This document shows, one piece after another, positions 3,280 to 27,963 of a DNA stretch of 64,000 nucleotides. Position 1 is the stretch's first letter. Each line of letters begins with the position of its first letter. The position numbers and the translations under genes were made by a program. Origin of the DNA: Chitinophagaceae bacterium (GTDB lineage Bacteria; Bacteroidota; Bacteroidia; Chitinophagales; Chitinophagaceae); the NCBI GenBank assembly GCA_004322015.1, contig SCQT01000235.1, forward strand, positions 1-64,000, in the 5' to 3' direction. A model generated the notes under the pieces. It worked only from the letters and a program-made list of their open reading frames with translations. It did no database searches and was not told where the DNA came from.

Positions 3280-3296
3280 GCGGAGAGGGCGGGATT
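3280..3296. other. attL, left attachment site
   Basis: The sequence GCGGAGAGGGCGGGATT is repeated exactly at 27947-27963, where it forms the last 16 nucleotides of tRNA-Ser plus one flanking base. Here it is not followed by the rest of a tRNA, as expected for the far end of an element integrated at a tRNA 3' end. Confidence 0.85.
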
Positions 3297-10215: not shown

Positions 10216-10731
10216 ATGTCAACACTGAATCTTCTAAGCGGAAATGTCCATTTACGAAACAGAAAGCTTCCTATACTTTGGACAGGTATGTACGCGCAGC
10301 ATTTGGCTGAAGAATATGAAAAGGATCCTCACATTCATCCCTTGTTGCATATTGAAGCGCAACAAACATTATCAAAATCTGATATCTTAAAAAACAGACG
10401 TGGAAGATGGATGGGATTTCATCCGGCCATTGCAGGCGGTTATTATTTTTTTCCTCTGATTATTTACCCTAAATTTGTGGTAATTCAAACCTGTTTTTTT
10501 GAAAATCATTCAGATATGGAAACAGCCAAAAGACAAAAGGGAATAGGTAGCGAAAAAAAGAGAACTCCTAAAAAAGCTTCACGCATTACGAATGTTCATT
10601 TCTCAGAGCAATTTGTAAAAGCAGTAGAAAGAGAAGGCTATGATATTGATGATTTTAAAGATGTATTGCTACAGTTCGTTAATCGTTCCGAAGCAAGCCG
10701 GAAAAAGTATTCTAAATTGGCCAATTCATAA
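10216..10731 (+). CDS. Hypothetical early protein, two-part
   Basis: This 171-residue protein has an N-terminal part with aromatic patches (RGRWMGFHPAIAGGYYFFPLII) and a C-terminal part from about residue 101 that is basic and helical (TAKRQKGIG, then TNVHFSEQFVKAVEREGYDIDDF). An internal ATG at 10516 could start the second part as a separate 71-residue protein resembling small phage DNA-binding proteins. Which start is used cannot be decided by eye. No family is recognised. Confidence 0.5.
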   Translation: MSTLNLLSGNVHLRNRKLPILWTGMYAQHLAEEYEKDPHIHPLLHIEAQQTLSKSDILKNRRGRWMGFHPAIAGGYYFFPLIIYPKFVVIQTCFFENHSDMETAKRQKGIGSEKKRTPKKASRITNVHFSEQFVKAVEREGYDIDDFKDVLLQFVNRSEASRKKYSKLANS

Positions 10732-10753
10732 TGAGAATAAATATTTTGATTTT

Positions 10754-10996
10754 ATGGATGCGATAACAATTTTTCCCGAAAACCAGGAACAGGAAAAAAC
10801 CCTGGAAGCAGTCTTTCAAATGATGCAATTGCGGTTTGAAAAAAATATAACAATGGCTGATGCTAAAAAACGAATTGAAGAATTAACACAAATGCTTCAA
10901 GATGTTTCTGATTGTGCGGAAATCGAACGCAGGATGAATGAACCGGACATTCCTGCCGAGCAAGTATATGCTGAAATTGAAAAGAAGTGGAAATGA
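10754..10996 (+). CDS. Antitoxin partner of RelE-like toxin
   Basis: This 80-residue acidic helical protein precedes and overlaps the RelE-like toxin gene. I start it at MDAITIFPEN (10754) rather than further upstream, where the frame runs out of phase through the previous gene. The sequence (EQEKTLEAVFQMMQLRFEK and later EQVYAEIEKKWK) fits small Bacteroidota antitoxins paired with RelE/ParE toxins. It has no obvious DNA-binding motif. Function is inferred from the neighbour. Confidence 0.65.
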   Translation: MDAITIFPENQEQEKTLEAVFQMMQLRFEKNITMADAKKRIEELTQMLQDVSDCAEIERRMNEPDIPAEQVYAEIEKKWK

Positions 10997-11256
10997 TGGA
11001 ATATAAAATAACTTATAAACCATCGGCCCAGAAAGAATTATCTCTTTTACCTAAACATGAATATTTCGCTATAAAATCGGCTATAGAAGCGCTTAAAGAT
11101 AATCCCTATCCTTCCGGCTGTAAAAAAACACATGGAAAATTTGAGAGCTGTTATCGTATAAGGCAAGGCGATTATCGTGTTATCTATTTTGTTATTAAGA
11201 ACGAAATTTCCATACGTATTATCAAAATTGGCCATCGCAGAGATATCTACCGCTAA
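10993..11256 (+). CDS. RelE/ParE-family toxin
   Basis: The 87-residue protein has the RelE fold pattern: ITYKPSAQKELSLLPKHEY, a helical hairpin, GKFESCYRIRQGDYRVIYFV and a final IIKIGHRRDIYR, including the basic residues of the active face. The start at 10993 gives an ATGA overlap with the antitoxin stop; ATG 10996 and GTG 10987 are alternatives. RelE-type toxins cleave ribosome-bound mRNA. In this element it may stabilise the provirus or act against superinfection. It is the last gene before the first leader-RNA cassette. Confidence 0.8.
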   Translation: MMEYKITYKPSAQKELSLLPKHEYFAIKSAIEALKDNPYPSGCKKTHGKFESCYRIRQGDYRVIYFVIKNEISIRIIKIGHRRDIYR

Positions 11257-13794: not shown

Positions 13795-13896
13795 ATGATC
13801 ATTTTTTTCCTGATTGCAATTTTGGCCATTGTCGGTTTTGTACTATGGAACGCCTGGCAATCTTCTAATGCAAAAAAGATTACCAGCTTTCTATGA
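13795..13896 (+). CDS. 33-residue single-pass membrane peptide
   Basis: The open frame MIIFFLIAILAIVGFVLW, then NAWQSSNAKKITSFL, is one transmembrane helix followed by a short polar tail with two lysines. It ends in an ATGA overlap with the next gene, the same junction type used by most genes of this module, which supports it as real despite its size. It begins the run of small membrane proteins of the late module and may be a virion membrane protein. Confidence 0.6.
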   Translation: MIIFFLIAILAIVGFVLWNAWQSSNAKKITSFL

Positions 13897-14351
13897 AAAG
13901 AATAATGCCTTTGTTGCTTATCGCAGGCGGGTATTTAGCCTGGCATCTTTATAAGATCAAACAGGCTATTGATCTGATGACAATAAGGATTTCAAATGTA
14001 TCGCTCAATCCTGGTGGAGGTCTTTTACAAACATTGCTCAACGTCACATTAACGGTATATAACCCGGAAAATGTGACTTTGAAATTTCAGCAATTCATTG
14101 GTAGTGTCAATTATAATGGGGAACCGATTGCAAACTTTAATGTGACCCAGGCAAGTGGACCTATTGTAATAGGTCCTAATAGTGTGGTGGAAGTACCGAT
14201 GAATGCCGAAATACTGAATATTAACGCGCTTTCAAATATGGGAGGCATTATTAGTTCAGGATTGAAGGATATGACATTAGTAGGTATTATTATCATAAGC
14301 AGTATTCATGTACCGGTAAATATCAATCTGGCGGATTATGCGAAAGGGTAA
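13893..14351 (+). CDS. Membrane-anchored LEA2-like protein
   Basis: The 152-residue protein has an N-terminal membrane segment (residues 4-20, IMPLLLIAGGYLAWHLY) and then a beta-sandwich-like region. Phrases such as VTLTVYNPENVTLKFQQF and VNYNGEPIANF are typical of the LEA14/WHy (LEA2) immunoglobulin-like fold. The end lacks further membrane helices. This is a type II-like topology suited to a protein rooted in a membrane with the domain on one side. It overlaps both neighbours. A role as an internal-membrane or membrane-to-capsid linker protein is inference. Confidence 0.6.
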   Translation: MKRIMPLLLIAGGYLAWHLYKIKQAIDLMTIRISNVSLNPGGGLLQTLLNVTLTVYNPENVTLKFQQFIGSVNYNGEPIANFNVTQASGPIVIGPNSVVEVPMNAEILNINALSNMGGIISSGLKDMTLVGIIIISSIHVPVNINLADYAKG

Positions 14352-14472
14352 AAAAAAGAAAAAGTTTAATGCGACAGAGTTTTTGGGTTTTGCCGCGATC
14401 GCAGCGGGTATTTATTATTTAACGAAAAAAACAAAGCAGGCTGGTACTGTAACTCAAACAACGAAAGCATGA
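14338..14472 (+). CDS. 44-residue basic single-pass membrane peptide
   Basis: The frame begins MRKGKKKKKFNATE, followed by a membrane helix FLGFAAIAAGIYYL and then a basic tail TKKTKQ. It overlaps the preceding gene by 14 bp and the following gene by ATGA (14469-14472). The strong positive charge before the helix predicts the N-terminus on the inner or DNA side. It is one of several such peptides in the module. Confidence 0.6.
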   Translation: MRKGKKKKKFNATEFLGFAAIAAGIYYLTKKTKQAGTVTQTTKA

Positions 14473-16160
14473 ATCTGAAAGCAATTGCTGATGAAACAAT
14501 ACCTGCAGCTCATAATAAGTTCATTCAAATAAAGAAACGATACAGCACGGGAGATATTGTGGATGAAGTGCTTCAATGTTTTCGGGAAAGTTCCTGGCAA
14601 TTGAAAGAATTCGCCCCCTATCTGAGAGGAGAGAATGTAAAAGAGACTTGCGGGAATGTTTGGAATTTCCTGAAAAAAAACGTGAAGTATAAAGTGGATC
14701 CAGAGGAAGTGCAATGGGTAAAAGAACCAGCTAAGACCTGGGAAGATAAACAGTGCGATTGTAAAAGCTATAGCATATTCATTGCTTCCTGTCTTAAAAA
14801 TTTAGGTATAAAAGGATGTTTTCGTTTCGTGAGTTTTAATGATGAACCTGAACCTACACACGTATATATTATTGTGCGTAACCAGGGACAGGATATTATA
14901 ATAGATGACGTAATGCCTCAGTTCAATAAAGAGGCTCAATATATAAGTAAAAAAGATTATCCCATGCAAGGATTATACAGAGTTAGTGGCTTGCCTTCCA
15001 ATGCTTCCATAAAGGGAGCATTACCCGTTGTATCCGGTATGGGAAAGATTTCAATTAATCCCGCACATAAGGGATTATTTACGCGTAAGGCTGAACGTGA
15101 GGGCATGACTGTAAAACAGTTTGGAAGGCATGTATTGGCCCATAAGAATGATTATCCATTGCAAACGATACGTGAAGCGGTATTTTATGAGAATGAGAGA
15201 AATTGGCATAATCATCATAGAATAGGTTCCCTTCCGGTAATAGGGTGTATGGAAGATGATCCCCACGTGGGAAGCATCTTTGATAATATTTTCCGTGGTA
15301 TTAAAAAAACTCTCAGCCAATCCCAGGCCGATCAGTATGTTATTCAATTAGCGCCTGCTTTGTTATACAGGTATATACCGGCTCCATTCCTAAAATTTAC
15401 GGGCAATGGTGTAGATTCTTTCTTTTCTTCCCTGCCTTCTATCGTACAGCAAAAAGTACATGCATGTGATAATCTGCTGAATTATATGCATGATAATTGG
15501 GCACAAGACTATTACCACACTGATCATCTTTTGCATCATACATTAACGGGATTGTTGGGGATGGAACCTCAGCATTATTTAGCTACGGTTATTAATTCCG
15601 TCATTGATTCTTTTCAGAATACCACTGCAACAGCAATAGGCTCATTGGATGTAAGCAATTTCTTACAACAATATGGAGGATCAGGATCAATGCCTTCCGG
15701 ATCTGGTAATATGAATTGGGGTGGGATATTATCTAATACCGGGGAAAGCGCTGCCAGTGGAACAGCAGCTGGAGGTCCGGCGGCAGGTGCAGCTACCGGG
15801 GCATTAACTTTCATAACCAGCCTGCTTTCCGGTTTATCCAGGGTGAATTTGCCGGATAGCTTCAATATTCAAAGCATTGCGCCCCAGCCTGGGGATTGGT
15901 CAGGTTATCAGACTAAGATGCAAACATTCGTTGTTACACCTACACATTCAGATCCATTAGGGTCAGGGTTAAATAATGGATTATATGATGCGAACGGCAA
16001 TGCTATACCGGGCGTTAACAGAAGTTTATTACCAGGTTCCACGCAGTTTTACGGCACACCTGCAATAAGATCTGGTATGTCTCCTTTAATAATGATTGGA
16101 CTTGCCGGCGCTGCCGCAATGATGTTTTTCGGACATAAAAAGAAAGGAGCCAGAAAATGA
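14469..16160 (+). CDS. Transglutaminase-like virion protein with C-terminal anchor
   Basis: This 563-residue protein is the second largest of the late module. Residues 60-150 resemble a transglutaminase/NlpC-like core with Cys98 in QCDCKSYS, His131 in THVYIIV and Asp146 or Asp147 in IIIDDVM, in the right order and spacing for a Cys-His-Asp triad. The middle is rich in His and aromatic residues (HNHHRIGSLPV; DYYHTDHLLHHTLTG). A Gly/Ser/Ala-rich linker follows at about 405-450. The C-terminus is a membrane segment (IMIGLAGAAAMMFFG) with the basic tail HKKKGARK. It may crosslink or cleave capsid or cell-wall components. Function is inferred from the triad. Confidence 0.6.
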   Translation: MNLKAIADETIPAAHNKFIQIKKRYSTGDIVDEVLQCFRESSWQLKEFAPYLRGENVKETCGNVWNFLKKNVKYKVDPEEVQWVKEPAKTWEDKQCDCKSYSIFIASCLKNLGIKGCFRFVSFNDEPEPTHVYIIVRNQGQDIIIDDVMPQFNKEAQYISKKDYPMQGLYRVSGLPSNASIKGALPVVSGMGKISINPAHKGLFTRKAEREGMTVKQFGRHVLAHKNDYPLQTIREAVFYENERNWHNHHRIGSLPVIGCMEDDPHVGSIFDNIFRGIKKTLSQSQADQYVIQLAPALLYRYIPAPFLKFTGNGVDSFFSSLPSIVQQKVHACDNLLNYMHDNWAQDYYHTDHLLHHTLTGLLGMEPQHYLATVINSVIDSFQNTTATAIGSLDVSNFLQQYGGSGSMPSGSGNMNWGGILSNTGESAASGTAAGGPAAGAATGALTFITSLLSGLSRVNLPDSFNIQSIAPQPGDWSGYQTKMQTFVVTPTHSDPLGSGLNNGLYDANGNAIPGVNRSLLPGSTQFYGTPAIRSGMSPLIMIGLAGAAAMMFFGHKKKGARK

Positions 16161-16468
16161 TCATGCCGGTAAGCAATATTAATAATGCAGATTATTTTAT
16201 AGGTCCATCCCTTAAGGATGTGAATCCCGTAAACCGGATCCCTGTCATGCAAACATTAGGTCCTGAGATCCAGAATAAATATGCTCCTAACCCAAATACG
16301 GCACTTTATTCACAAACACAAGCTGCACTGCTTCCAGTGGATATTCCTAAGCCGCCGGTTAGTTCATCGAATAGTCAATCAAATCCACCGACAAGCAATA
16401 ACAACAAAAAATTTCTTTTTATAGCAATAGCCGCAATTGTGGCAATTATTTTATTAACAAAAAAATAA
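16157..16468 (+). CDS. Tail-anchored membrane protein
   Basis: This 103-residue protein has a proline- and asparagine-rich, probably extended N-terminal part and a Ser/Asn/Pro-rich linker (PPVSSSNSQSNPPTSNN). It ends in a C-terminal membrane helix FLFIAIAAIVAIILL and TKK. It overlaps the previous gene by ATGA and is 6 bp from the next. The design (soluble domain, flexible linker, membrane anchor, basic end) repeats through this module. Confidence 0.6.
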   Translation: MIMPVSNINNADYFIGPSLKDVNPVNRIPVMQTLGPEIQNKYAPNPNTALYSQTQAALLPVDIPKPPVSSSNSQSNPPTSNNNKKFLFIAIAAIVAIILLTKK

Positions 16469-16474
16469 AACATC

Positions 16475-16822
16475 ATGGCTACACGTAAATCGCCACGCAA
16501 ACCGAAATTTTTAAAATATCCGAAAAAACCGCGCCAATCGGCAGCAACATCAGTTCTTGAAAGGTACATGGAACGTGTGAAAGAAATAGATCGTGAAAAC
16601 AAAGAGCGTCTTTCAAAGTATGAACGTGATCTGAAGGACTTTGAAAATGACAAAAGGCATCACGCGGAATTGATCAAACATATCGGAAGTATTGGTAAAT
16701 CTTCCGAACGTGTACATCACCGCCATCATGTCCGCAGGCATCCTTCAAAAAGGCGGGCTGTCGGTAAAGTAACTCGGAAACATTCAAGGAAAAGGGCTAC
16801 ACATCGCCGCCGTCGGAAATAA
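16475..16822 (+). CDS. Highly basic protein, possible DNA-condensing protein
   Basis: The 115-residue product begins basic (TRKSPRKPKFLKYPKKPRQ), has an acidic-basic coiled segment (VKEIDRENKERLSKYERDLKDF) and ends in a long Arg/Lys/His-rich tail (HHRHHVRRHPSKRR and RKRATHRRRRK). Such composition suggests binding to nucleic acid. A virion-packaged DNA-condensing protein is plausible given the neighbours. No sequence family is recognised. Confidence 0.6.
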   Translation: MATRKSPRKPKFLKYPKKPRQSAATSVLERYMERVKEIDRENKERLSKYERDLKDFENDKRHHAELIKHIGSIGKSSERVHHRHHVRRHPSKRRAVGKVTRKHSRKRATHRRRRK

Positions 16823-16880
16823 TCCGAGTTTTCAATCATCAATTTTCAATTATCAATTTTCAAATAATAAATAAACTATC
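16823..16880 (+). repeat. Short TCAATTTTCAA repeat in intergenic spacer
   Basis: The spacer contains TCAATCATCAATTTTCAATTATCAATTTTCAA (broken here only by length), a repeat of TCAATTTTCAA units. Similar tandem filler is seen in host intergenic regions of the window. Confidence 0.35.
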
Positions 16881-17315
16881 ATGGCACGCAAATCAGGTAA
16901 AAAAATGGATATTAAAGCAATCGCGATGGATGCCCTGGCGCTATCTGGCGGAGCCGCAGCGTCCGGCATTGTTGACAGTATGTTGCTTTCAAAACTTTCC
17001 TTCGCATCGGATCCAAAAATCAAAGGGCTTCTTAAAGTAGCTGCAGGATCTTTTCTTCCTCCGCTGATCGCGCGAGGAAAAGGCGGGGAATTCATTGAAC
17101 GTTTCGGAGATGGTATGGTCAGCATTGGCGGTTATCAGTTGATGCATGCCTTATTACCCAACCAGATCCCCGCGATCAGTGGCATCGGCAATAATTTGCT
17201 TGCCTATCCTCCGCAGGTTCAAATAGGCGAAACTGCACCGAAATTAGACACTGTGAGTGGATTACCCACACTGGAAGGCATCGGGGAGAATGCAGGTGAC
17301 AATTTTTTGGAATAA
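16881..17315 (+). CDS. Late-module protein with glycine/alanine-rich helices
   Basis: This 144-residue protein starts with a basic stretch (ARKSGKKMDIK), then a small-residue-rich helix (ALALSGGAAASGIVDSMLL) and a second one (LKVAAGSFLPPLIARGKGG). These could insert in or lie on a membrane. The C-terminal 40 residues are acidic (TLEGIGENAGDNFLE). It lies between the basic protein and the capsid candidate. No family is recognised; a structural role is likely from position. Confidence 0.55.
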   Translation: MARKSGKKMDIKAIAMDALALSGGAAASGIVDSMLLSKLSFASDPKIKGLLKVAAGSFLPPLIARGKGGEFIERFGDGMVSIGGYQLMHALLPNQIPAISGIGNNLLAYPPQVQIGETAPKLDTVSGLPTLEGIGENAGDNFLE

Positions 17316-17393
17316 AGCCTGACCGGTCATTATCGGGATGGCTGTAATTTTTTTTTGTAAACAATTTTTTATTTCAACATTAAATCAAATTTT
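17316..17393 (+). terminator. Weak terminator or attenuator before capsid candidate
   Basis: AGCC at 17314-17317 can pair with GGCT at 17339-17342 around the palindrome TGACCGGTCA, and a run of nine T follows within 17347-17357. It could partly stop or start-separate the transcript just upstream of the gene at 17394. Confidence 0.35.
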
Positions 17394-18104
17394 ATGCAGT
17401 ATGCAGGAAATTTAGTAGTGGCTCCGGATCGGGAGCGCGCTATCTATACGGGCCTCAGGAGAAAGGCTCCGAATAACATCATTACGCCGGGTTTCATCCG
17501 GCTGGAACAACAATTATCCAGCGGCCAGGGACAGTACCAATTTCAGATTGGTAAGAACGTAGGCAATCCTTCAGCTACAGAAGTCCGTCTGGACCTGAAT
17601 GATGCATTTGTGGCCACTAAATTGGGGATTTATTTGTTAAATGATGATCCATCCTTACCTGGTCATTCCCCCTTGCTCACATTTCCTTCACCGGTTGATT
17701 TTCCTGCCGAAGCGGGCAATGTGAATCCAAGTCATTTGGAGGCATTTTACAACGGTTTTCTCCGCGTGAAAGTAGCTGATGTGGTATATGCTGAGGCAAT
17801 GGCTACCCGTAAATTCCGAGTGGTACGGGATCAACAGAGCGCCCCTGCAGTTGCTGTAGGTACCAATTGGCCGGCCGCTCCGCAAAAACTCAGCGAAACA
17901 CTGGGCTTTGATGGTTTGGAAGATTTGACACCTCAGTTCATCTTCCAGGGACAGGCAAAGAACGAACTTTCATTGTATGTGCCTGCTAACAGTACGCAAC
18001 AGGTTCAGTATGTAACCGCCACTACCAGGATCAAGGTAGTATGGTATATGGAAGGTTTCCTGATCACTCAGGGATCTGCATTAGGAAGCGCATTGCAAGG
18101 ATAA
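17394..18104 (+). CDS. Candidate major capsid protein (beta-rich)
   Basis: This 236-residue protein has no membrane segment, alternates short hydrophobic beta strands with loops, and ends in KVVWYMEGFLITQGSALG. It has its own upstream hairpin and a strong terminator right after it, so it can be expressed apart from its neighbours, as expected for an abundant capsid protein. Segments such as TEVRLDLNDAFVATKLGIYLL and LSLYVPANSTQQVQYV look like strands of a jelly roll. The size would suit a single jelly roll rather than a double one. I recognise no family, so the capsid call rests on position, composition and lack of any other candidate. Confidence 0.4.
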   Translation: MQYAGNLVVAPDRERAIYTGLRRKAPNNIITPGFIRLEQQLSSGQGQYQFQIGKNVGNPSATEVRLDLNDAFVATKLGIYLLNDDPSLPGHSPLLTFPSPVDFPAEAGNVNPSHLEAFYNGFLRVKVADVVYAEAMATRKFRVVRDQQSAPAVAVGTNWPAAPQKLSETLGFDGLEDLTPQFIFQGQAKNELSLYVPANSTQQVQYVTATTRIKVVWYMEGFLITQGSALGSALQG

Positions 18105-18127
18105 CATGTTCACAGCGCAATAAATAG

Positions 18128-18159
18128 AAAAGCCCGTTCCGGCACCGGGCGGGCTTTTT
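18128..18159 (+). terminator. Strong intrinsic terminator after capsid candidate
   Basis: AAAGCCCG pairs with CGGGCTTT around an inner CCGG-CACCGG stem, followed by TTTTT (to 18159). It lies 24 bp after the stop of the capsid candidate and 25 bp before the next gene. Confidence 0.8.
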
Positions 18160-18183
18160 AATTAACAAACAAATTTTCATACG

Positions 18184-18585
18184 ATGTTTAAAATTAAAAA
18201 TAGCGAGGAAGTTGAAGTTGCCATTGTGAATACGGCGCAACAAACTTTTTATTTTGGCAATGAATTTCTTTTACGCAATGCGAGAAGAATTACCGGGATA
18301 GAAGTCTTTTCCGCGTCTCAGGTTGCCAATACTCCTTCTGGAGCTGCTGTTATTTCACAGGCTATTCTTCAAGGCGCGTTCATCACTTTGGTAGGAGAAG
18401 AAAATAACCGGGAGATCATTAGCAAAATGCCTCTTTCTTCTTTGCTTGCAGCAAATAACAACGGGCATGTGCGCGAGTTTGATATGCCAATGATTAATCC
18501 ATCCAAATGCTATATCACATTTGGAAGTACTACAGGATTAGTGGCTAACTCAGTTATCCCATTTGCATTTTATTATGAACTCTGA
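18184..18585 (+). CDS. Second beta-rich structural candidate
   Basis: The 133-residue protein has no membrane segment and a beta-rich pattern: VEVAIVNTAQQTFYFGNEF, ITGIEVFSASQV, AFITLVGEENNREIISKMP, ending in VIPFAFYYEL. It follows the capsid candidate directly after the terminator, 6 bp before the next gene. A second capsid subunit or a vertex protein is possible; two unequal single-jelly-roll proteins are known in some tailless phages, for example P23-77. No sequence family is recognised. Confidence 0.4.
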   Translation: MFKIKNSEEVEVAIVNTAQQTFYFGNEFLLRNARRITGIEVFSASQVANTPSGAAVISQAILQGAFITLVGEENNREIISKMPLSSLLAANNNGHVREFDMPMINPSKCYITFGSTTGLVANSVIPFAFYYEL

Positions 18586-18590
18586 TCAGG

Positions 18591-18806
18591 ATGGAGCATC
18601 TGCAAAAAGAATATGTGAACATAGACTGGTTCATAAAAATACTTTTGGGATTAGTCTCTTTTTTTTTGGCTGTCACATTTTTCACAGTTCAAAAAACGGC
18701 ATCTGATGTATCGGATTTAAAAGCTCAGATAGTTGTCATGCAGAATAATTACAACGGTCTTAATGAAAGAGTAAATCAAATTGAATTAAACGAAGGCAAA
18801 AAATGA
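18591..18806 (+). CDS. Small membrane protein with coiled coil
   Basis: This 71-residue protein has a membrane helix (IDWFIKILLGLVSFFLAVTFF, residues about 12-32, given here in part) followed by a coiled coil (DVSDLKAQIVVMQNNYN, then LNERVNQIEL). It ends in an ATGA overlap with the next gene. The layout suits a trimeric or dimeric membrane spacer. Confidence 0.6.
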   Translation: MEHLQKEYVNIDWFIKILLGLVSFFLAVTFFTVQKTASDVSDLKAQIVVMQNNYNGLNERVNQIELNEGKK

Positions 18807-19543
18807 TTCTGGGTAAACAAAATATTATAGCGTGGTTTGAAAGCCTTGATGTTCCTTACTGGGTTTTGTTTGCAAAGGGGAAGGTTGAATCAGGCAATCC
18901 TATTTCTAAATCGGATGACAGAGATAATGCCACAGTGAATAATGCAATAGATCATCTCAGAAAAATATTAGATCTGGAATCCCGTGGCCAGTTTACCTTA
19001 ATTGCCTCTCCTAAAAATAATGTTACATCCAGGGGAGGATTCAGGCAGGATTTTGAAATAAATGGCCCGGAAACTTCTACAGCTTCATCAGCGAATCCGG
19101 GGATATTTGGTATGCCTCAAAGCATTGGTGAACTGGATGAATTGACAAACCAACGCGCACAAAAAATGATTGAAAGCGTGAAGCTGGAAATGCAATTGCA
19201 AAAACTTAAGGATGAAAATGAAGTCCTGAAGAAAGAAAATAAAGAATTGGAGAAAGAAGCGGATAAAGGTGCCAATAAGTTTTGGGAAGCAATTAACGGT
19301 ATAGGCCTGGATAAGATAATCGGCGCTTTCATGACTAAAGGTCCGCAGGCTGCACCGGCCGTTACAGGTGTACCTCCGGTTGCCGAACCTCCCGAGAATG
19401 ATCACGGATATGCATTGAGGTTGAGTAAGGTAATATCCATCTTCCAGGAGAATGATCCTGACTGGCTGGATACCCTGGAAAAAATGGCAAATAAAATACA
19501 GAATGATCCATCGGTAATAAAAATGTTCAAAAAATTCCTATGA
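18803..19543 (+). CDS. Late protein with coiled coil, VPYW domain
   Basis: The 246-residue product starts with a small domain (residues 1-85) containing WFESLDVPYWVLF and IDHLRKILDLESRGQFTLIAS. It continues with a Pro/Gly/Ser linker and a strong coiled coil (about 130-165, KLKDENEVLKKENKELEKEA), and ends in a helical part with IFQENDPDWLDTLEKM. The next gene also has a VPYW near its start, so the two may share a domain. No family is recognised. It may be a scaffold or connecting protein. Confidence 0.55.
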   Translation: MILGKQNIIAWFESLDVPYWVLFAKGKVESGNPISKSDDRDNATVNNAIDHLRKILDLESRGQFTLIASPKNNVTSRGGFRQDFEINGPETSTASSANPGIFGMPQSIGELDELTNQRAQKMIESVKLEMQLQKLKDENEVLKKENKELEKEADKGANKFWEAINGIGLDKIIGAFMTKGPQAAPAVTGVPPVAEPPENDHGYALRLSKVISIFQENDPDWLDTLEKMANKIQNDPSVIKMFKKFL

Positions 19544-20097
19544 GTTGTCTTTGTAAATCAAATAATATATCTAATTCCTTTTCACCTGATTATTTTAAAA
19601 ATGTAGGTGGGAAGGAAATGGCTATTTATGCGATAATAAAGCCCTTAAAAGATTGTCAGGTCCCCTATTGGTGCAATACCCTTTCTGCTTATAATAATAG
19701 CCCGAAAACAGGACTTATTTCACTCTCTGATCCTGTTTTTTCAAAAGCATTATCTATTCAGGCAAAATGTTCGCTCAGACTAATAGTTGATGATATTCAG
19801 AATAACACATTAAAACCTCTGGAATATTATGGGACAGTACTATTGGCTGGTGGTAAAATAGTTAATTATGATCCGTCTGTAATGACCGGATCCGTTAATA
19901 TGATCCCGAAAAATGATTTTTTATCGAATGCCGGCGCAGGAAGTCCTTCTAAGGAGACAGGATCAGGAACGCAAAATACTGATTCAGTGCCGGCATCTGA
20001 TAATTTAGTAAATAAAGCAAAAGAAATAGCCGCTCAGCCGGTGAACGTTGGATTGCTACTTATGATTTTTGGAATCAGCGCACTTATAAGTAAATAA
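19540..20097 (+). CDS. Tail-anchored late protein, VPYW domain
   Basis: This 185-residue protein has a Cys-containing N-terminus, a domain starting AIIKPLKDCQVPYWCNTLS, a Gly/Ser linker (NAGAGSPSKETGSGTQ) and a final membrane segment (VGLLLMIFGISALISK). It overlaps the previous gene by ATGA. A methionine at MAIYAIIKP (19618) is an alternative start. The VPYW similarity to the preceding gene suggests paralogous domains, one soluble and one membrane-anchored. Confidence 0.55.
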   Translation: MSCLCKSNNISNSFSPDYFKNVGGKEMAIYAIIKPLKDCQVPYWCNTLSAYNNSPKTGLISLSDPVFSKALSIQAKCSLRLIVDDIQNNTLKPLEYYGTVLLAGGKIVNYDPSVMTGSVNMIPKNDFLSNAGAGSPSKETGSGTQNTDSVPASDNLVNKAKEIAAQPVNVGLLLMIFGISALISK

Positions 20098-20106
20098 AAC
20101 AAGATT

Positions 20107-20541
20107 ATGCCTCTGTATGATATGGCCGATATTATTGATAAAACATTAGTTGCACAGCAGCAGCTCAATGTATATGATTCCCCCGACGGTAATATAATAG
20201 GTACCGTGGAACCTGGAGAGCCGGCGGGTGTGGTATATAGTTGGGTCACTGGATCCGGAGGAATGATCTGGTTTATGTTTGAAAGCAACAATTCAAACAT
20301 GGTTAATTCGCTGGGAAGTTATTACATCCCGAACCTGCCTAATTCGTTCAGCATTGATGCATTGCAACAGCAGGGAGTGATATCTACGCATCAAAAAGTA
20401 ATTGATCAGCAAAAAGCTAATCAGAGCACATTTGATAAGATTGCCAATTTGGTAAAATGGGTAGGGATTGCATTCATAATCGGCACAGTAGGAAAATCGC
20501 TTGTTGACAAGGTTAATATTCACAAAAAAGCAAAACAATGA
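20107..20541 (+). CDS. SH3-like protein with C-terminal membrane segment
   Basis: The first 65 of 144 residues read like a bacterial SH3 barrel: LVAQQQLNVYDSPDGNIIGT, VEPGEPAGVVYSWV, then MIWFMFES. A helix and a membrane segment follow (IANLVKWVGIAFIIGTVG), with the basic end HKKAKQ. SH3-like domains in phage proteins often bind peptidoglycan or other virion proteins. It overlaps the next gene by ATGA. Confidence 0.55.
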   Translation: MPLYDMADIIDKTLVAQQQLNVYDSPDGNIIGTVEPGEPAGVVYSWVTGSGGMIWFMFESNNSNMVNSLGSYYIPNLPNSFSIDALQQQGVISTHQKVIDQQKANQSTFDKIANLVKWVGIAFIIGTVGKSLVDKVNIHKKAKQ

Positions 20542-20969
20542 TCTCAGGAAATATATTCGATGCTACAACTGGTCAGCCTTTGATTGGCGCTGTTATTGCC
20601 GAACTTGATGGATCCGGTACCGTGGTGAATGGAACAACTACAGATTCAAATGGAAATTTTAGCCTGTCAATGAATAATTCATCTGATCAATTGCGGGTCT
20701 CCTATATAGGTTTTCAAACTGTTTATGTAGATCCTGCGGATGCAGGATCAATTTCTTTATTTTCTTCTACAAATCAGTTACCTGGTGTCACTGTAACGGC
20801 ACCTCCTTATGTTCAAAAACCGGTTAATTATTCACAAACAAATAATGCATCCATGTCACAAATATGGACAGATTTAAAGCCGCTTTTATTGCCTGTTGCA
20901 ATAATATTTGTGGCGGGCTATCTTATCAATCAAAGTCACGAAAAATCACGTAAAAAATATCGCAGATAA
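20538..20969 (+). CDS. TonB-receptor-like N-domain on a membrane anchor
   Basis: Residues 1-75 of this 143-residue protein match the carboxypeptidase-D-regulatory-like domain found at the N-terminus of SusC/TonB-dependent receptors: SGNIFDATTGQPLIGAVI, TTDSNGNFSLSM, and RVSYIGFQTVYV. It is followed by LPGVTVTAPP, which resembles the EVVVTA segment next to receptor TonB boxes. The rest is an Asn/Ser-rich linker, a membrane helix (LLLPVAIIFVAGYLI) and a basic tail (HEKSRKKYRR). No receptor barrel follows, so this is a separate protein, probably virion-associated. Confidence 0.65.
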   Translation: MISGNIFDATTGQPLIGAVIAELDGSGTVVNGTTTDSNGNFSLSMNNSSDQLRVSYIGFQTVYVDPADAGSISLFSSTNQLPGVTVTAPPYVQKPVNYSQTNNASMSQIWTDLKPLLLPVAIIFVAGYLINQSHEKSRKKYRR

Positions 20970-21559
20970 TGGCAGATTTTGGCACAGCATATCAAGTATT
21001 AGAACAAAATGAAGGTGGTTATGAGAATAATCCATCTGACAGGGGTGGAGAAACCTACAGGGGTATTGCGCGTAATTACCATCCTGATTGGACGGGCTGG
21101 ACGTGGATTGATAATTATAAATATCAATATGGCCCGATACCCAGAGGGACTGTTTTCTCAAAGCTTGAGAGTGATGTGCAACAATTTGTATATGAAAACT
21201 TCTGGGTACCGATTCAGGGAGATTCTATTCAAAATCAGCAATTAGCTAATATGGTTTTGGATTTTTGTTACGAAAGTGGCCATGGACCTGAACAAATAAA
21301 TCTTGCTTTAGGATTACCCGGGACTAATTCAATAACAACTGATACGGTCAACGCGATGAATGCGGATCCTGTTAATGCGTTCAATGTGATCAAACAACAG
21401 CGACTAAATTATTATGAGAATTTGAATCAGGAAGGTTATATCAGTGATAATCTTATTCAAGGAGTGCTTGATCGCGTGAGAAAATTGGCTTCTCCCACGG
21501 CTATAGCAATTACCGGAGGCGCCACGGCGGTAATTGCCCTCCTTGTTTTTTTTTGCTAA
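20969..21559 (+). CDS. GH108 N-acetylmuramidase with membrane anchor
   Basis: This 196-residue protein has the GH108 lysozyme core. The catalytic glutamate is Glu15 in LEQNEGGYENNP and is followed by SDRGGETYRGIAR. It ends the domain with FCYESGHGPEQI and a C-terminal peptidoglycan-binding-like part (VIKQQRLNYYENL). The last 25 residues form a membrane segment (AIAITGGATAVIALLVFFC), unlike free phage endolysins. Position among virion proteins and the anchor suggest either a virion-borne entry muramidase or a tethered endolysin. It follows the previous gene with a TAATG overlap. Confidence 0.8.
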   Translation: MADFGTAYQVLEQNEGGYENNPSDRGGETYRGIARNYHPDWTGWTWIDNYKYQYGPIPRGTVFSKLESDVQQFVYENFWVPIQGDSIQNQQLANMVLDFCYESGHGPEQINLALGLPGTNSITTDTVNAMNADPVNAFNVIKQQRLNYYENLNQEGYISDNLIQGVLDRVRKLASPTAIAITGGATAVIALLVFFC

Positions 21560-21580
21560 TTCATAAACGGAGAAATTGAT

Positions 21581-21871
21581 ATGCATATCTTAAGAAACGT
21601 TTTTTTTCAGTATGGTACCAATACAATTTTGAATATTGGCAGGCCTAATGCGATCCTTATAAAGAATACGGGTCAGGTCATGCTTTATATCAATAATTTT
21701 CCTCTGGCTCCTAATGATGTATTTACAAGCAATCTTTTACAGGCGGACATGATGGATGATACAAAATATAACATCACATTTGATCCCAATGCTGTAGGCA
21801 CAAGGCTGGTTAATGTGGTTGCAACATTTGTCAGTGAAGAAAAGGAGGTACATAATGGCCCTGCATGTTAA
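21581..21871 (+). CDS. Beta-rich late protein
   Basis: The 96-residue product is predicted beta-rich (HILRNVFFQYGTNTILNI, PNAILIKNTGQVMLYI, TRLVNVVATFVS) with no membrane segment. It overlaps the next gene by 17 bp, and its end contains that gene's Shine-Dalgarno site. It looks like a small spike-base or minor capsid protein, without a recognised family. Confidence 0.5.
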   Translation: MHILRNVFFQYGTNTILNIGRPNAILIKNTGQVMLYINNFPLAPNDVFTSNLLQADMMDDTKYNITFDPNAVGTRLVNVVATFVSEEKEVHNGPAC

Positions 21872-22073
21872 AGTATATTTTAATGGATCCAATCAATTGG
21901 GAGTAGTGAATTTGTCCATTGTTGCGCCTCAAACGAATGCGCAATTGAATTCATTATATCCTAATTCAATTCCCACTTTTTCAGTTTATTGTCCCAATGT
22001 ATCCGGTGGCGGATTAACCTATGTATATATGGGATCCGGCCTTTGGTCAAGTGAACTTTTAACACATAATTAA
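21855..22073 (+). CDS. Small beta-rich late protein
   Basis: This 72-residue protein begins MALHVKVYFNGSNQLG. The start at 21855 is set by a strong Shine-Dalgarno AAGGAGG at 21841-21847, 7 bp upstream, instead of ATG-like starts further upstream. It has beta-strand character and ends one base before the spike gene. It may be part of the spike base. Confidence 0.55.
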   Translation: MALHVKVYFNGSNQLGVVNLSIVAPQTNAQLNSLYPNSIPTFSVYCPNVSGGGLTYVYMGSGLWSSELLTHN

Positions 22074-22074
22074 A

Positions 22075-25023
22075 ATGAAAAGATTAGTTTTATTAATATT
22101 CTCTCTTTTTGCTTTTTATTTTTCAAAAGCACAAATAATAAATAAAGTTGTCAATACATTTCGAAATGACAATTATGGAAATAACACATGGGTAGCTCAG
22201 GGGAATTTGGGTGTAGATACAGCACTTTTATTCAATGCCATTGACACTACTTTCCATCCATTATATCCAGGATTAGTTTATAAAACATCAGATAATACAT
22301 TGTATTTATGGAATATGAAGTTATGGTCATCAATCGGCAGTTCAAAGATTGATACAGTTAATACGATTCCGCAAATGGAATTGTACAGCAGATCTGCTAA
22401 TTTACTTTTCGTGACTGATAGCTTACGTGGCGGTTTATTTTATTATTACAATTTAGGTTCACCCGACGGAGGTGTATGCTTCCCTGCAACTGGGAAAATA
22501 ACTGGTTATTGGATAAGAGTTTTTAATCAGGCAAATGGAGTAAATGTGGCTTGGTTTGGAGCAAATCCTTATGATGCAATAGCGGATAATTCAAACATAA
22601 ATGCTGCTATAAATTCACCCTATAGCAATGGCATTGTCAACGTGAATAATTATACGACTGGGCAATTTTATTTGGATTCGGCTATTGTTTTAAAAACAAA
22701 CACATCTTTACTTACAAGTGGAGCTACACGGTTTTCACTTGTAAATAATGCAGACTGTTATATGCTTGTAAATAAGAATGTTTACGGAGCAGATAGTAAT
22801 ATTGTGGTAAAAGGAGGGGTGTGGTTTGGAAATGGATTAAACCAAAGCAGAAAGCAGAATACGGATAGTATCCAATACGAATATGCTGGTATGATTCTAC
22901 GTTTCGTAAATGCTTCTAATATTTACATAGATAATGTAGTTATGGATACGGCATTGTCTTATACTACCTGGTTCCCTAATTGTAATAATGTGCATATTTC
23001 AAATTCAGAGTGTTGGGGAACGGCAACAAGCCCTTGGGCACCGGGTCATACGTTAAATGAATGCTTTGTTGGATTTTCCGGAAATGGATTATATCTAAAA
23101 AATTTGAAAGGACATACGGCGGATGATTTTATAACAATACAATCGGGCCTGTGGGGAAGCATTGACAGCATGAAACTAATACCGCAAGTAAACGTAAGTA
23201 ATGTTTATGCAGACAATATAAATATAGTTGATCTTGCCGGTGCGCATGTATATGCATCATTTGCAGCATGGGCCGGAGAAAATGCAGGATTACCTAATTC
23301 AAATGTATCTAATGTTTATCTTTCTCATTTTTACGGCGCATGTCAATCTGCAATGTTTAAGTTTGGAAATTATCCATCCGGCATATCAAATTTTAACAAC
23401 ATAAATATTTCAGACTGTAATTTTACAGTGTATAATCCCGTTTCTTTTTATTCAAATCAGGGGGTTGTGGTTGGGGATATAAGCAACGATACATATCAGT
23501 GTAATATGAATGGTTTATATCTTAATAACATAGTTGAAAATAATAACGGGTTATCTGCAAGATTTCTTCAATTTTTTGATTATACTAACTTAACCGGAAA
23601 TGTCACATTAAACAATGTGTCAGTTTATCAAACCAGTACAACTAATAATCCGTTAGCATATTCTTTAATTTTTGATGCGTCCACCGGATCAACTTCAGCC
23701 TACAATCTTCTTTTAAATAATTGTAAGAATTTTGATAACGGTCTTTCTACTTCACAGTATCTTTATTATCGAAACAATGTATTGAATACTTATCCAGTCA
23801 ATATAACCTTTTCAAATTGTTTTGTAAATAATCCATCATCTTATCCATTTCGTTGCCAAAATGCAGCATCTAAAATATCAGTGAATGGAACTTCTTTAGA
23901 AGAGCCAATATCTTACGTGACAGCTCCATCTGAGGGGAATGTAGTGAATGATCCGGCCGCAGGTTATTCTACATATTTATCAGGAAAATGGGTTCAATAT
24001 TTAACAGGCAATCAAAACATAACTTTAAGCGGAGATATAACAGGAAGTGGAACAACTGCTATTACTACATCTTTAAAGAATACAGGAACAGCAGGAAATT
24101 ATACACGCATTACTTTTGATGCTCAGGGCAGGGAAACAGGCGGCACCGATACTGCTTATGCTCCTTTGGCCGGAGGATCGGGATATATCCAAAATCAATA
24201 TGCGGCGGCTCAACCGGCCAGCTGGTGGGTACAGGGTCAGTCGAGAACTGATGGAGGTACATTTAATTTAACCGGCCTTGGAAACGGTAAATTAATTTCT
24301 ACATCAACACTTAATCTCACAGATACCGGAAGTTATGTTAATCCGGCGAATGGTATTGGAATGTACGCATTTAATTCCGGGACGGAATTAGACAATCCAC
24401 ATTCGATTACTTTAAGCGGAGGGGTCAATCAAATAGCCGGCCTCCGGTCAGATATCTCTTTAAATAGTTCGGATTCGACTACTTGGTTAAATTTGGATGC
24501 CGGATCTGCAGTAACAGGATTATTAGGAGTGATCAGAGCATTCAATAATGGAAAATATGGAGTTGTGGGCGCTGTGGGAGCTTTAGCGCCATTCACATTT
24601 ACTCAGGCACCCTACACTGCATTTACAGGTCATATTGATACGGCCGCCCAGATATTGCTTTATAAACAAACAGATGTAGCAAATAGCATTGATTCCAAGA
24701 TAGGAACACCATTTGGGATCTTACAGCTCAGCCCCTATCCAAATAGCTTCAATGGCGGCCTGCAGATGCCCATTGTGAATGTTTCTGCAAATTATACAGC
24801 AACAACAGCAAATTATTCAATCCGGTGTACAGCAGCTTTGACCCTCACATTACCGGCTGCAACAAGTTGTCCTAATCAGATTTATCACATTGTAAGCACA
24901 TCGGGTACTGTGACAGTTACATCATTTAATAATTTATCTAATGTAGCGACGACTTCCATTGCGGCGGGCAGCGCTGTGGAATTGCAATCGGATGGTACTG
25001 CCTGGAATCAGATCGGAAACTAA
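22075..25023 (+). CDS. Receptor-binding spike with beta-helix domain
   Basis: This 982-residue protein starts with a signal-peptide-like stretch (MKRLVLLIFSLFAFYFSKAQ). Residues about 155-600 look like a pectate-lyase-type right-handed beta-helix: the opening WFGANPYDAIADNSNINAAI recalls the GA-DG-DDT-AI motif of tailspikes and is followed by many VSNVYA- and NIxISN-type turns. From about 645 come typical fibre repeats (LSGDITGSGTTAITTSL), and the C-terminus is a small fibre-tip domain (CTAALTLTLPAATS, SDGTAWNQIGN). It should bind or degrade a surface glycan. The signal sequence on a phage spike is unusual but occurs in Bacteroidota phages. Confidence 0.75.
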   Translation: MKRLVLLIFSLFAFYFSKAQIINKVVNTFRNDNYGNNTWVAQGNLGVDTALLFNAIDTTFHPLYPGLVYKTSDNTLYLWNMKLWSSIGSSKIDTVNTIPQMELYSRSANLLFVTDSLRGGLFYYYNLGSPDGGVCFPATGKITGYWIRVFNQANGVNVAWFGANPYDAIADNSNINAAINSPYSNGIVNVNNYTTGQFYLDSAIVLKTNTSLLTSGATRFSLVNNADCYMLVNKNVYGADSNIVVKGGVWFGNGLNQSRKQNTDSIQYEYAGMILRFVNASNIYIDNVVMDTALSYTTWFPNCNNVHISNSECWGTATSPWAPGHTLNECFVGFSGNGLYLKNLKGHTADDFITIQSGLWGSIDSMKLIPQVNVSNVYADNINIVDLAGAHVYASFAAWAGENAGLPNSNVSNVYLSHFYGACQSAMFKFGNYPSGISNFNNINISDCNFTVYNPVSFYSNQGVVVGDISNDTYQCNMNGLYLNNIVENNNGLSARFLQFFDYTNLTGNVTLNNVSVYQTSTTNNPLAYSLIFDASTGSTSAYNLLLNNCKNFDNGLSTSQYLYYRNNVLNTYPVNITFSNCFVNNPSSYPFRCQNAASKISVNGTSLEEPISYVTAPSEGNVVNDPAAGYSTYLSGKWVQYLTGNQNITLSGDITGSGTTAITTSLKNTGTAGNYTRITFDAQGRETGGTDTAYAPLAGGSGYIQNQYAAAQPASWWVQGQSRTDGGTFNLTGLGNGKLISTSTLNLTDTGSYVNPANGIGMYAFNSGTELDNPHSITLSGGVNQIAGLRSDISLNSSDSTTWLNLDAGSAVTGLLGVIRAFNNGKYGVVGAVGALAPFTFTQAPYTAFTGHIDTAAQILLYKQTDVANSIDSKIGTPFGILQLSPYPNSFNGGLQMPIVNVSANYTATTANYSIRCTAALTLTLPAATSCPNQIYHIVSTSGTVTVTSFNNLSNVATTSIAAGSAVELQSDGTAWNQIGN

Positions 25024-25031
25024 TAAAAAGC

Positions 25032-25051
25032 CCTGGTATAGAGATACCAAG
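25032..25051 (+). terminator. Hairpin after the spike gene
   Basis: TGGTAT-AGAG-ATACCA (25034-25049) is a perfect stem but has no T-run after it, so it may protect the mRNA end or attenuate rather than terminate. Confidence 0.35.
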
Positions 25052-25102
25052 ACTAACTATAAAAAACACGTATTAAACTATAAAATTAATAAAAATTTCA
25101 TC

Positions 25103-25429
25103 ATGAAAAATATAAAAACAACAATCATCGGGCTTGTAGTAGCCGTCTTACTTGCAGGCTGGGGTGTATTCCAGCCTGCTATTACGGGCGGTAAAGTAGA
25201 TCTGAAGATACTCATACCCGCCGGCATCATCGCTATTGTGGGAGTATTGGAAAAGGACCTGGGATCCTGGAAAACAACTACAGTGGGCATAATTTTATCG
25301 GCATTGGCCGCAGCCGCAAGCACGTATCAATCTTCACCAGGACAATGGGTGTTGATTATTGGTGCCATCCTGGGAGTAATAGGAGCATCCCTGGCGAAGG
25401 ATAAAACACCCGGCAATGCAGGATCCTAA
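25103..25429 (+). CDS. Holin-like membrane protein
   Basis: This 108-residue protein has three hydrophobic segments (TTIIGLVVAVLLAGWGVF, LIPAGIIAIVGVL, WVLIIGAILGVIGASL) with short polar links and a charged end, typical of Bacteroidota phage holins. The frame is open upstream but runs out of phase through the spike gene, so ATG 25103 is the start. It overlaps the spanin-like gene by 14 bp and would form the pore needed for lysis or release. Confidence 0.6.
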   Translation: MKNIKTTIIGLVVAVLLAGWGVFQPAITGGKVDLKILIPAGIIAIVGVLEKDLGSWKTTTVGIILSALAAAASTYQSSPGQWVLIIGAILGVIGASLAKDKTPGNAGS

Positions 25430-25955
25430 AATATATCACAGATCCGATCTGTTAATTGCCATTATTGCAGCTTTCGTGATTGTTATCGTGGCTTTTTTAT
25501 TTACCGGTTGCATGACCGGTAAACATGCTGTATATTGGATGGACAATCATGCTTTTAAAGCAGCCCAATATTGCAATAGCCGGTTCCCGATTGATACGGT
25601 ACTGAAGCCAGGGCAAACTATTACTTTACAGGATACGATTGTCCAAAGCGGGCCATCCATCCTCTGCCCTGCCCAATCAGGATATGATAGCCTGATTTAT
25701 GTAAAATGTCCTCCAAACCGGACGATAACTATTCAAAAGATCCGTGTGGATACCCTGCCTGTTACTAATACCAGGCAGATTTCTGCATTAGAAGGCCAAA
25801 TTTCGACTTTAGAGCTTAATACGGGCAATTTATCAAACCAGGTCACATCACTTAAAAAAGGCCGAAACGTGTGGCGTTCTACAGCTATTTTGGCATTGGC
25901 TATCATATTTACAGGTCTCACAGTATTTATTGGCGTAAAATTCAAATTTATTTAG
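25416..25955 (+). CDS. Spanin-like lipoprotein with two membrane ends
   Basis: The 179-residue product has an N-terminal hydrophobic segment ending in a lipobox-like FLFTGC. A periplasmic region with several cysteines follows, then a coiled coil (ISALEGQISTLELNTGNL, NQVTSLKKGR) and a C-terminal membrane helix (STAILALAIIFTGLTVFIG). Spanning both membranes with a coiled coil fits a unimolecular spanin that disrupts the outer membrane at lysis. It follows the holin-like gene. The spanin call is by topology only. Confidence 0.5.
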   Translation: MQDPKIYHRSDLLIAIIAAFVIVIVAFLFTGCMTGKHAVYWMDNHAFKAAQYCNSRFPIDTVLKPGQTITLQDTIVQSGPSILCPAQSGYDSLIYVKCPPNRTITIQKIRVDTLPVTNTRQISALEGQISTLELNTGNLSNQVTSLKKGRNVWRSTAILALAIIFTGLTVFIGVKFKFI

Positions 25956-26746: not shown

Positions 26747-26775
26747 GCCCTGACATTCTTGTCGGGGCTTTTTTT
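26747..26775 (+). terminator. Terminator after cassette 2
   Basis: GCCCTGACA (26747-26755) pairs with TGTCGGGGC (26760-26768), with one G-U pair, followed by seven T. It separates cassette 2 from the convergent integrase gene. Confidence 0.8.
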
Positions 26776-27850
26776 ATAAAGTGGGAAATTTAATCTTCAG
26801 ATCATCATTATCCATTATACCAAGGTCCTTTAAATATTCATTTACCTGGTCTAAAGAATGATGTCTCAATTGCAATTGTAGGTCTTTTATATTTATCCCT
26901 CCTTTAATGGCGGCTACAGCTCCCGTATGCTTCCAGGAATAAAAAGAATAACGGCCGAAAATTTTGCAGGCTAATAATCCATTTTTATGAGCATCATTAA
27001 AATGTTTATCTGATACTGCAATCCTACCGTCTGGATCCTTTGAAAAAAGTAAACCAAAAGGATTGGATCTGGATTGTACATAAGGTTTTAATAGATTCAT
27101 ACACGAATTAGGGATCCTTACCTTTTGTGTTTTCTTATTCTTACTGATTTCAGCTCTCAGCTCTATCCATTGTTCCTCCAGGTTAATATCTGAAATTCTT
27201 AAAAGTCTCATTTCTCCGGGCCGGATAAAGCAATAATACAATAGTTGAATAGCCATCCACATTTCCACGTCATTGAAAAGAAAATATTTCTTCAAAATGT
27301 TTATCTGGCTTTTATTAAAGAACATTTTACTTGTATATCTCTTTCTTAAAGGAATAGTCCCGTCAAAAGGGTTTATACCCGTATTGGTGCGCTTGTAAAT
27401 AGTGAATAATGTTCGCTTATATGCTAATACAGTAGATTCATGCTTTTTCAAGCGAAGTAAAGTCCGAAGGAATTCATTCGCATCAGAAGTATTTATTTTC
27501 AATGGATCCCGTCCGGCAAGCCAATTAATGAAATGGGTAACCTTTGTCTTGTAAGTTGAAAATGATTTTTTTCGTAAAAGAGGCTTTAAGTCGAAAAGTG
27601 TAGTTAACAGTATATTCTTTTGTTTCTGATCTTTATACCAAGCACCGGCCGCAATAAGTTTTATGATTTCAATGGCTTTTTCTTCCCGTTTATCGAAATC
27701 TTTAATCCTATTCATCCATCCATAAACCCGTATTCGTTCGTGGACATCCATTGGATGAGGTTCATAATATTCAATATACCATCGCGGCTTACTCTTTACT
27801 ATTATATATTGCTGGTCATTTTGACAAATAATTTTTTTTTCCGTTTTCAT
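26774..27850 (-). CDS. Tyrosine recombinase (integrase)
   Basis: This 358-residue protein has an N-terminal SAM-like core-binding domain and a catalytic domain with the first arginine in YCFIRPGEMRLL, a lysine-rich beta hairpin (SKNKKTQKVRIP), SWKHTGAVAA, the LRHHSLDQ block and the nucleophile tyrosine in VNEYLKDLGI. In the usual H-x-x-R box the second arginine is replaced (KHTGA), a variant I associate with a Bacteroidota integrase group. It lies beside attR, reading inward, and should carry out integration into and excision from tRNA-Ser. Its start at 27850 lies 17 bp from an inverted GCGCCAAAAAA arm-type site. Confidence 0.9.
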   Translation of the reverse strand: MKTEKKIICQNDQQYIIVKSKPRWYIEYYEPHPMDVHERIRVYGWMNRIKDFDKREEKAIEIIKLIAAGAWYKDQKQKNILLTTLFDLKPLLRKKSFSTYKTKVTHFINWLAGRDPLKINTSDANEFLRTLLRLKKHESTVLAYKRTLFTIYKRTNTGINPFDGTIPLRKRYTSKMFFNKSQINILKKYFLFNDVEMWMAIQLLYYCFIRPGEMRLLRISDINLEEQWIELRAEISKNKKTQKVRIPNSCMNLLKPYVQSRSNPFGLLFSKDPDGRIAVSDKHFNDAHKNGLLACKIFGRYSFYSWKHTGAVAAIKGGINIKDLQLQLRHHSLDQVNEYLKDLGIMDNDDLKIKFPTL

Positions 27851-27946: not shown

Positions 27947-27963
27947 GCGGAGAGGGCGGGATT
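27947..27963. other. attR, right attachment site within tRNA-Ser
   Basis: This 17-bp sequence equals attL at 3280-3296. It covers the acceptor stem and part of the T arm of tRNA-Ser, so the intact tRNA is kept on this side of the element. Confidence 0.85.

Follow-up and report, generated by a model that had tools for sequence, protein, structure and literature searches.

Late block of a Chitinophagaceae provirus and the tailless, jelly-roll, membrane-containing phage that it probably encodes

What kind of particle can be expected from a phage element that carries integration, replication and lysis genes, and in which no terminase, portal or tail gene is recognised? The question is raised by a provirus in the window analysed here (64,000 nucleotides, positions 1 to 64,000 of contig SCQT01000235.1, assembly GCA_004322015.1), which lies on a 64.2-kb contig of a Chitinophagaceae bacterium, from a family that also includes Lacibacter cauensis. 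An earlier note had read one stretch of it as the late module of a tailless, probably membrane-containing phage; all the pieces it named are present, and its observation as a whole is confirmed. We consider it quite probable that the genes here serve virion formation and lysis in a provirus that looks intact, and that the phage is tailless and icosahedral, has an internal membrane and a jelly-roll capsid, and represents a new lineage. The absence of terminase and portal and the predicted jelly-roll folds support this reading, and the particle, its membrane and a motor-free packaging are what the gene content suggests. The two findings that the earlier note had named as refuting it, a terminase or portal in profile searches and an HK97 or tail-protein fold of the capsid candidates, were both looked for and did not turn up.

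The provirus and the search for tailed-phage genes

The provirus extends from 3280 to 27963, its ends being set by a 17-bp exact direct repeat, GCGGAGAGGGCGGGATT, which bears out the size of 24.7 kb given in the earlier note. The left copy (3280-3296, attL-like) is matched exactly by the right copy (27947-27963, attR), which coincides with the 3' end of a tRNA-Ser(GGA) gene. A tyrosine integrase gene (26774-27850, minus strand; PF00589, E 1.6e-12) sits beside this tRNA gene. The left half of the element carries a primase-helicase, two DNA methyltransferases and an antirepressor, and the right half is the late block (13893-25955), with every gene on one strand (plus).

Profile searches of the 18 late proteins (Pfam and PHROGs) returned no convincing match to terminase, portal, tail or HK97 families, as had been claimed from the first reading. 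The only rows of this kind, 'tail fiber' and 'major tail protein', are weak (E 0.0025-0.24) and are confined to regions that are coiled-coil or score low. The domains that were identified are LEA_2, a transglutaminase-like domain, CarboxypepD_reg and a GH108 muramidase. Terminase, portal, tail and HK97 are also missing from the 25 most frequent families listed for the 136 proteins of three related proviruses. A profile search for a packaging ATPase, which the earlier note had called for, found none in the late block. No standard Walker A motif occurs in the annotated proteins of the window, in which the primase-helicase carries a variant form, GRTGKG, recognised by eye. The element differs from Caudoviricetes in having no recognised large terminase or portal and in its capsid candidates, which are predicted jelly rolls and not HK97 folds.

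Predicted capsid folds

The major capsid candidate (236 aa, 17394-18104) was modelled by AlphaFold from four sequences only. The model, with a predicted local distance difference test (pLDDT) of 66 and a predicted template-modelling score (pTM) of 0.69, has eight main strands, and the protein is predicted to be a single jelly roll. Its top Foldseek rows are capsids of iridovirus, Sulfolobus polyhedral virus 1 (SPV1), circovirus and coccolithovirus. On structural realignment, the SPV1 capsid comes first (Z 7.7 over 154 residues, root-mean-square deviation 4.2), tied with PBCV-1, EhV-201 and iridovirus; PR772, PRD1 and HHIV-2 score lower. Among predicted viral structures, small capsids with a single jelly roll make up most of the best rows. 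Since Z 6 is also attained by unrelated beta-sandwich enzymes, PHM for example, a jelly roll is indicated, but not yet any particular capsid type.

The next gene (18184-18585) encodes a 133-aa protein, a penton or small capsid candidate, whose AlphaFold model (pLDDT 88.6, pTM 0.82) predicts a second jelly-roll-like fold. Its neighbours are mixed: the first Foldseek row, which is not significant, is the PRD1 vertex protein P5, and TasA and AlgX equal the Z 5.8 of HHIV-2 chain 6h82_b. This 135-residue chain, numbered 49-173, fits the penton VP9 described in PMC6414509, of which the first 40 residues are disordered. Searches of PDB profiles with both capsid families gave weak unrelated rows or nothing. 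Structure prediction and fold search, proposed in the earlier note for these two genes, have thus backed its beta-rich capsid candidates, with jelly rolls obtained and no HK97 or tail fold found. As a separate observation, the capsid candidate of some relatives carries an N-terminal extension of about 60 aa with a hydrophobic segment (L017:9785-10639, L018:9791-10639, L141:7125-8033), as if the shell protein itself were membrane-anchored.

SPV1 (Portogloboviridae), whose single jelly-roll capsid comes nearest in structure to the 236-aa model, is likewise without a packaging ATPase (PMC8812541). It is an archaeal virus, however, the likeness is one of predicted fold, and the window carries a second jelly-roll protein. 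This second protein opens an alternative that we regard as possible yet doubtful: a helvetiavirus-like phage, in which the 236-aa and 133-aa proteins would be two major capsid proteins (MCPs; compare VP17/VP16 of P23-77 and VP4/VP7 of HHIV-2), the packaging ATPase being too diverged or lost. The two jelly-roll genes are adjacent, as are those of VP16 and VP17 in P23-77; HHIV-2 chains are among the structural neighbours of both models; and many small membrane proteins and a penton-like jelly roll are further likenesses to Helvetiavirae (P23-77, HHIV-2, HCIV-1). Salisaeta icosahedral phage 1 (SSIP-1), described as tailless, with an internal membrane, circular dsDNA, T=49 and capsids that may be single jelly rolls (PMC6356626, PMC6260650), is also reported to have two MCP types (PMC6356626). 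Nevertheless, no sequence link to P23-77 proteins was found, and Helvetiavirae possess an FtsK-HerA-type packaging ATPase, whereas neither such an ATPase nor a Walker A protein was found in the late block of any provirus examined.

It is much less probable that the element belongs with FLiP and PhiCjT23 (Finnlakeviridae and relatives), its double jelly-roll capsid having diverged strongly and its genome being ssDNA. FLiP and PhiCjT23 are likewise lipid-containing phages of this host phylum (the membrane being predicted here); no packaging ATPase is present in FLiP, whose capsid gene directly follows that of a small basic membrane protein; and one relative of the window, E105, has a Rep_trans replication initiator. 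However, the capsid candidate is predicted, in a model of middling confidence, to be one eight-strand barrel of about 225-236 aa, compared with a double jelly roll of 311 aa in FLiP, and no profile match to any FLiP protein was obtained. The genome also differs, being 24.7 kb long and tRNA-integrated, with a tyrosine integrase and a primase-helicase, compared with 6-9 kb for this type (7.6-9.2 kb of ssDNA for FLiP and PhiCjT23); dif-site integration is reported for PhiCjT23-like prophages (PMC9719478). The Odin group (Yutin 2018) has, like the window, a conserved small gene ahead of the capsid gene, there proposed to serve packaging, and no packaging ATPase (PMC5894146), but differs by its double jelly roll and its other gene set.

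Membrane segments, the SSIP-1 link and gene content

Evidence for the preferred reading, a tailless phage with an internal membrane, also comes from hydropathy analysis, by which 12 of the 18 late proteins have a membrane segment. In nine the segment is C-terminal, in many cases with a basic tail behind it, compared with 3 of 137 proteins of three tailed Bacteroidota phages (Fisher p = 8e-8), and the late proteins of SSIP-1 show the same trend (C-terminal membrane anchors in 8 of 26). The enrichment seen at the first reading stands, but its count of about a dozen proteins, each with one segment and a basic end, is a little too high: nine have a single segment near an end. Because of these membrane-anchored late proteins, an internal membrane beneath the shell is suggested.

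The 563-aa transglutaminase-like (TG) virion protein (14469-16160; DUF553/Transglut_core), with a C-terminal membrane segment and a basic tail, matches gp34 of SSIP-1 (profile probability 97%; tblastn against the phage collection, 5e-6), which carries the annotation of a structural virion protein. The Cys-His-Asp triad of the TG protein (C98-H131-D146) is invariant in six relatives. This is the one clear match in the profile comparison to SSIP-1, FLiP and P23-77. Besides a TG-like virion protein with a C-terminal membrane segment, SSIP-1 shares several late-block C-terminal anchors, an integrase gene and the tailless particle with an internal membrane, which is known for SSIP-1 and predicted here. 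It differs by its 44-kb genome and by its virion ATPase gp40, no Walker A protein of that kind occurring in the window; the AAA_25 protein of the small relatives described below matches gp40 weakly. No sequence or profile match was found between the capsid candidates and SSIP-1 gp45-gp48.

Two other sets of matches were set aside. The profile match of the CC protein (see below) to SSIP-1 gp33 (46%) may be due to coiled-coil bias and is gone with a larger alignment, and crAss-like matches to the 563-aa protein fall on a common short motif at residues 200-240, not on the enzyme domain. This motif (FTRKAEREGMTVKQFGRHVL..., residues 200-237 of the product of 14469-16160), found too in proteins of crAss-like phages that have no enzyme domain, looks like a module common to Bacteroidota phages. 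In some relatives, the TG protein lies in two adjacent frames (L018:7079-9052 in E108, with an in-frame TAA; L141:3375-5161, as separate genes), and the two halves may function there as separate chains.

The late block begins with the LEA_2-domain protein (13893-14351; PF03168), which has a hydrophobic N-terminus and is kept in relatives. Between the TG and capsid genes lie a small protein with a C-terminal membrane segment (16157-16468), a highly basic one (16475-16822; 35% K+R), a candidate for DNA condensation with basic counterparts at a similar place in relatives, and, immediately upstream of the capsid gene, the glycine-rich, probably membrane-associated protein of the conserved MEM family (16881-17315). 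The second jelly-roll gene is followed by a 71-aa protein with an N-terminal membrane segment (18591-18806), the coiled-coil protein of the CC family (18803-19543), kept in relatives, and three proteins with C-terminal membrane segments (19540-20097; 20107-20541, with a basic tail; and 20538-20969, with a basic tail and a CarboxypepD_reg domain, PF13715, E 2.6e-13). The muramidase named in the earlier note is a GH108 enzyme (20969-21559; PF05838, E 1.2e-17), again with a C-terminal membrane segment. Next come the 96-aa protein of the P96 family (21581-21871), kept in most relatives, and an 86-aa open reading frame overlapping it, of uncertain start (21813-22073). The block ends with a putative spike (982 aa, 22075-25023), a holin-like protein with three hydrophobic segments (25103-25429), and a two-segment membrane protein, possibly a spanin-like lysis protein (25416-25955). 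The spike is so called from its size, its position and the absence of any family match in Pfam or PHROGs. It starts with a signal peptide of the kind typical for Bacteroidota (MKRLVLLIFSLFAFYFSKAQ...), as do its counterparts in two of the three proviral relatives (E105, L016:16134-17867; E108, L018:15716-18601), which would be odd for a virion spike unless it is exported or membrane-anchored prior to assembly.

Transglutaminase, LEA_2, CarboxypepD_reg and signal-peptide proteins are also cell-surface themes, and the block could in principle belong to a non-viral mobile element that uses it for a cell-surface or vesicle structure. The muramidase, the holin-like protein, the spike, the tRNA integration and the virus-contig relatives make this very unlikely.

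In the early region, the primase-helicase (829 aa, 4671-7160, plus strand) has a BT4734-like N-terminus (PF08800, E 1e-29) and relatives in tailed phages. A small overlapping gene pair at 10640-11256 resembles an antitoxin and a RelE-type toxin, as judged from its sequence only. Just beyond the left end of the provirus, two similar minus-strand genes about 1 kb apart (1857-2168 and 2880-3125; 75-78% DNA identity) presumably encode GIY-YIG-like endonucleases, a domain name that we likewise assign by sequence.

Relatives, assembly and significance

Searching with the 236-aa protein brought up elements with the same synteny in three further genera of the family, and an alignment added two relatives in other families of the class; a 395-genome sample across the phylum contained none besides the window's own. 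The elements in the three genera are complete proviruses, of about 23.2, 28.4 and 27.2 kb, and lie in tRNA-Glu, tRNA-Arg and tRNA-Arg, respectively, each with a 15-17-bp repeat. Their late genes follow the order of the window (LEA, TG, basic protein, MEM, capsid, second jelly roll, CC, muramidase, spike). The replication genes vary: the window has the primase-helicase, and relatives have Rep_trans and SSB domains and ParB proteins. The virion block therefore appears to be a conserved core around which replication modules are exchanged. The TG family is present in 24 of 299 genomes sampled from the order, and capsid and/or second-jelly-roll genes were recognised in 10 of the 16 TG regions examined. 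One member of the lineage, E108, was found in a named cultured strain, L. cauensis CGMCC 1.7271 (NZ_VLLE01000005.1); with its TG gene in two frames, this prophage may be defective. Two further genome matches (G254, G296), low-scoring and to host metabolic genes, were dropped.

In IMG/VR, searches with single 236-aa, 563-aa and primase sequences and with the four-sequence capsid alignment returned nothing; only the TG alignment succeeded, finding 115 contigs, 80 of which were analysed. Twenty of the 80, with lengths of 11.4-13.8 kb, show terminal redundancy, the repeats measuring 41-127 bp (mostly 121-127), and are read as circular molecules cut at the assembler word length. Each of the 20 encodes LEA, TG, capsid, second jelly roll and CC, together with an AAA_25 ATPase, and the gene order does not change among them. 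Family counts depend on the profile thresholds and on contigs cut at their flanks. In the tree, a single supported clade unites these small viruses, and the window is placed with E105. At the thresholds used, their capsid and TG proteins matched nothing among 50,697 phage records, and no description of the group was found in the open-access papers searched. A widespread and apparently undescribed group of small circular viruses thus shares the virion block, without a recognisable packaging motor, which supports the new Bacteroidota lineage suggested in the earlier note and extends it beyond this provirus to many circular contigs of about 12 kb.

These contigs also bear on the idea of a phage satellite, or a tailed-phage relative, that borrows a helper capsid and whose jelly rolls are fibre or decoration proteins. 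The primase does resemble those of tailed Bacteroidota phages, and beta-sandwich folds also occur in phage fibres and decorations, as in the structural rows of the 133-aa protein. However, the element encodes a spike and lysis proteins itself, genes for a small terminase, for redirecting packaging or for setting capsid size are lacking, and the same block recurs in circular virus contigs where tailed-phage structural genes were not seen. We therefore give this idea very little weight.

The AAA_25 (RecA-like) ATPase was considered as a packaging motor and rejected. Present in 76 of the 80 viral contigs, it is missing from all four complete proviruses, whose replication modules differ (primase-helicase, Rep_trans, ParB); it therefore probably serves replication.

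For the tailless membrane phage that we favour, the 236-aa protein would form the shell, with the 133-aa protein either plugging the vertices or serving as a small additional shell protein. An internal lipid vesicle would carry, within it or on its surface, the proteins with terminal segments as well as the LEA_2 and TG-like proteins, and the spike that binds the host would be the 982-aa protein. Shell, vertex and anchored proteins may assemble on the vesicle in the way that PMC6414509 describes for vertical single-barrel viruses. Basic proteins are encoded ahead of the capsid gene not only in the window but also in nearly all circular viruses (23-30% K+R), whose MEM protein often has an Arg-rich N-terminus. 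These basic proteins would probably hold the DNA at the membrane, so that shell, membrane and genome could assemble together without a phage packaging motor. The phage would integrate at tRNA genes by its tyrosine integrase and leave the host by means of the muramidase and holin.

Several points weigh against this reading. The particle is a prediction from gene content, and motor-free packaging of about 25 kb of dsDNA would be unusual for a bacterial virus. The confidence of the 236-aa model is only middling, Z values below 8 can reflect a common arrangement, and the capsid proteins have no sequence match to any known capsid. The SSIP-1 link concerns one enzyme-like domain and is modest, since the general Pfam family scores about as well as gp34 does; the context strengthens it.

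Tailless membrane phages are under-sampled, and SSIP-1 has so far been, to our knowledge, an isolated orphan. The group found here is widespread (24 of 299 genomes of the order, more than 100 IMG/VR contigs), with a capsid unmatched among 50,697 deposited phages. It may tentatively be suggested, at rather long odds, that these elements are an uncultivated Bacteroidota lineage, from 12-kb circular forms to 28-kb proviruses, with membrane-lined particles, one single-jelly-roll MCP and dsDNA uptake without a packaging ATPase, as a bacterial counterpart of SPV1. If so, they would show an SPV1-like state, the proposed ancestral state of two-jelly-roll viruses, and, if both the single jelly roll and the motor-free packaging hold, the proposed intermediate between one-jelly-roll viruses and Helvetiavirae would become testable in a bacterium.

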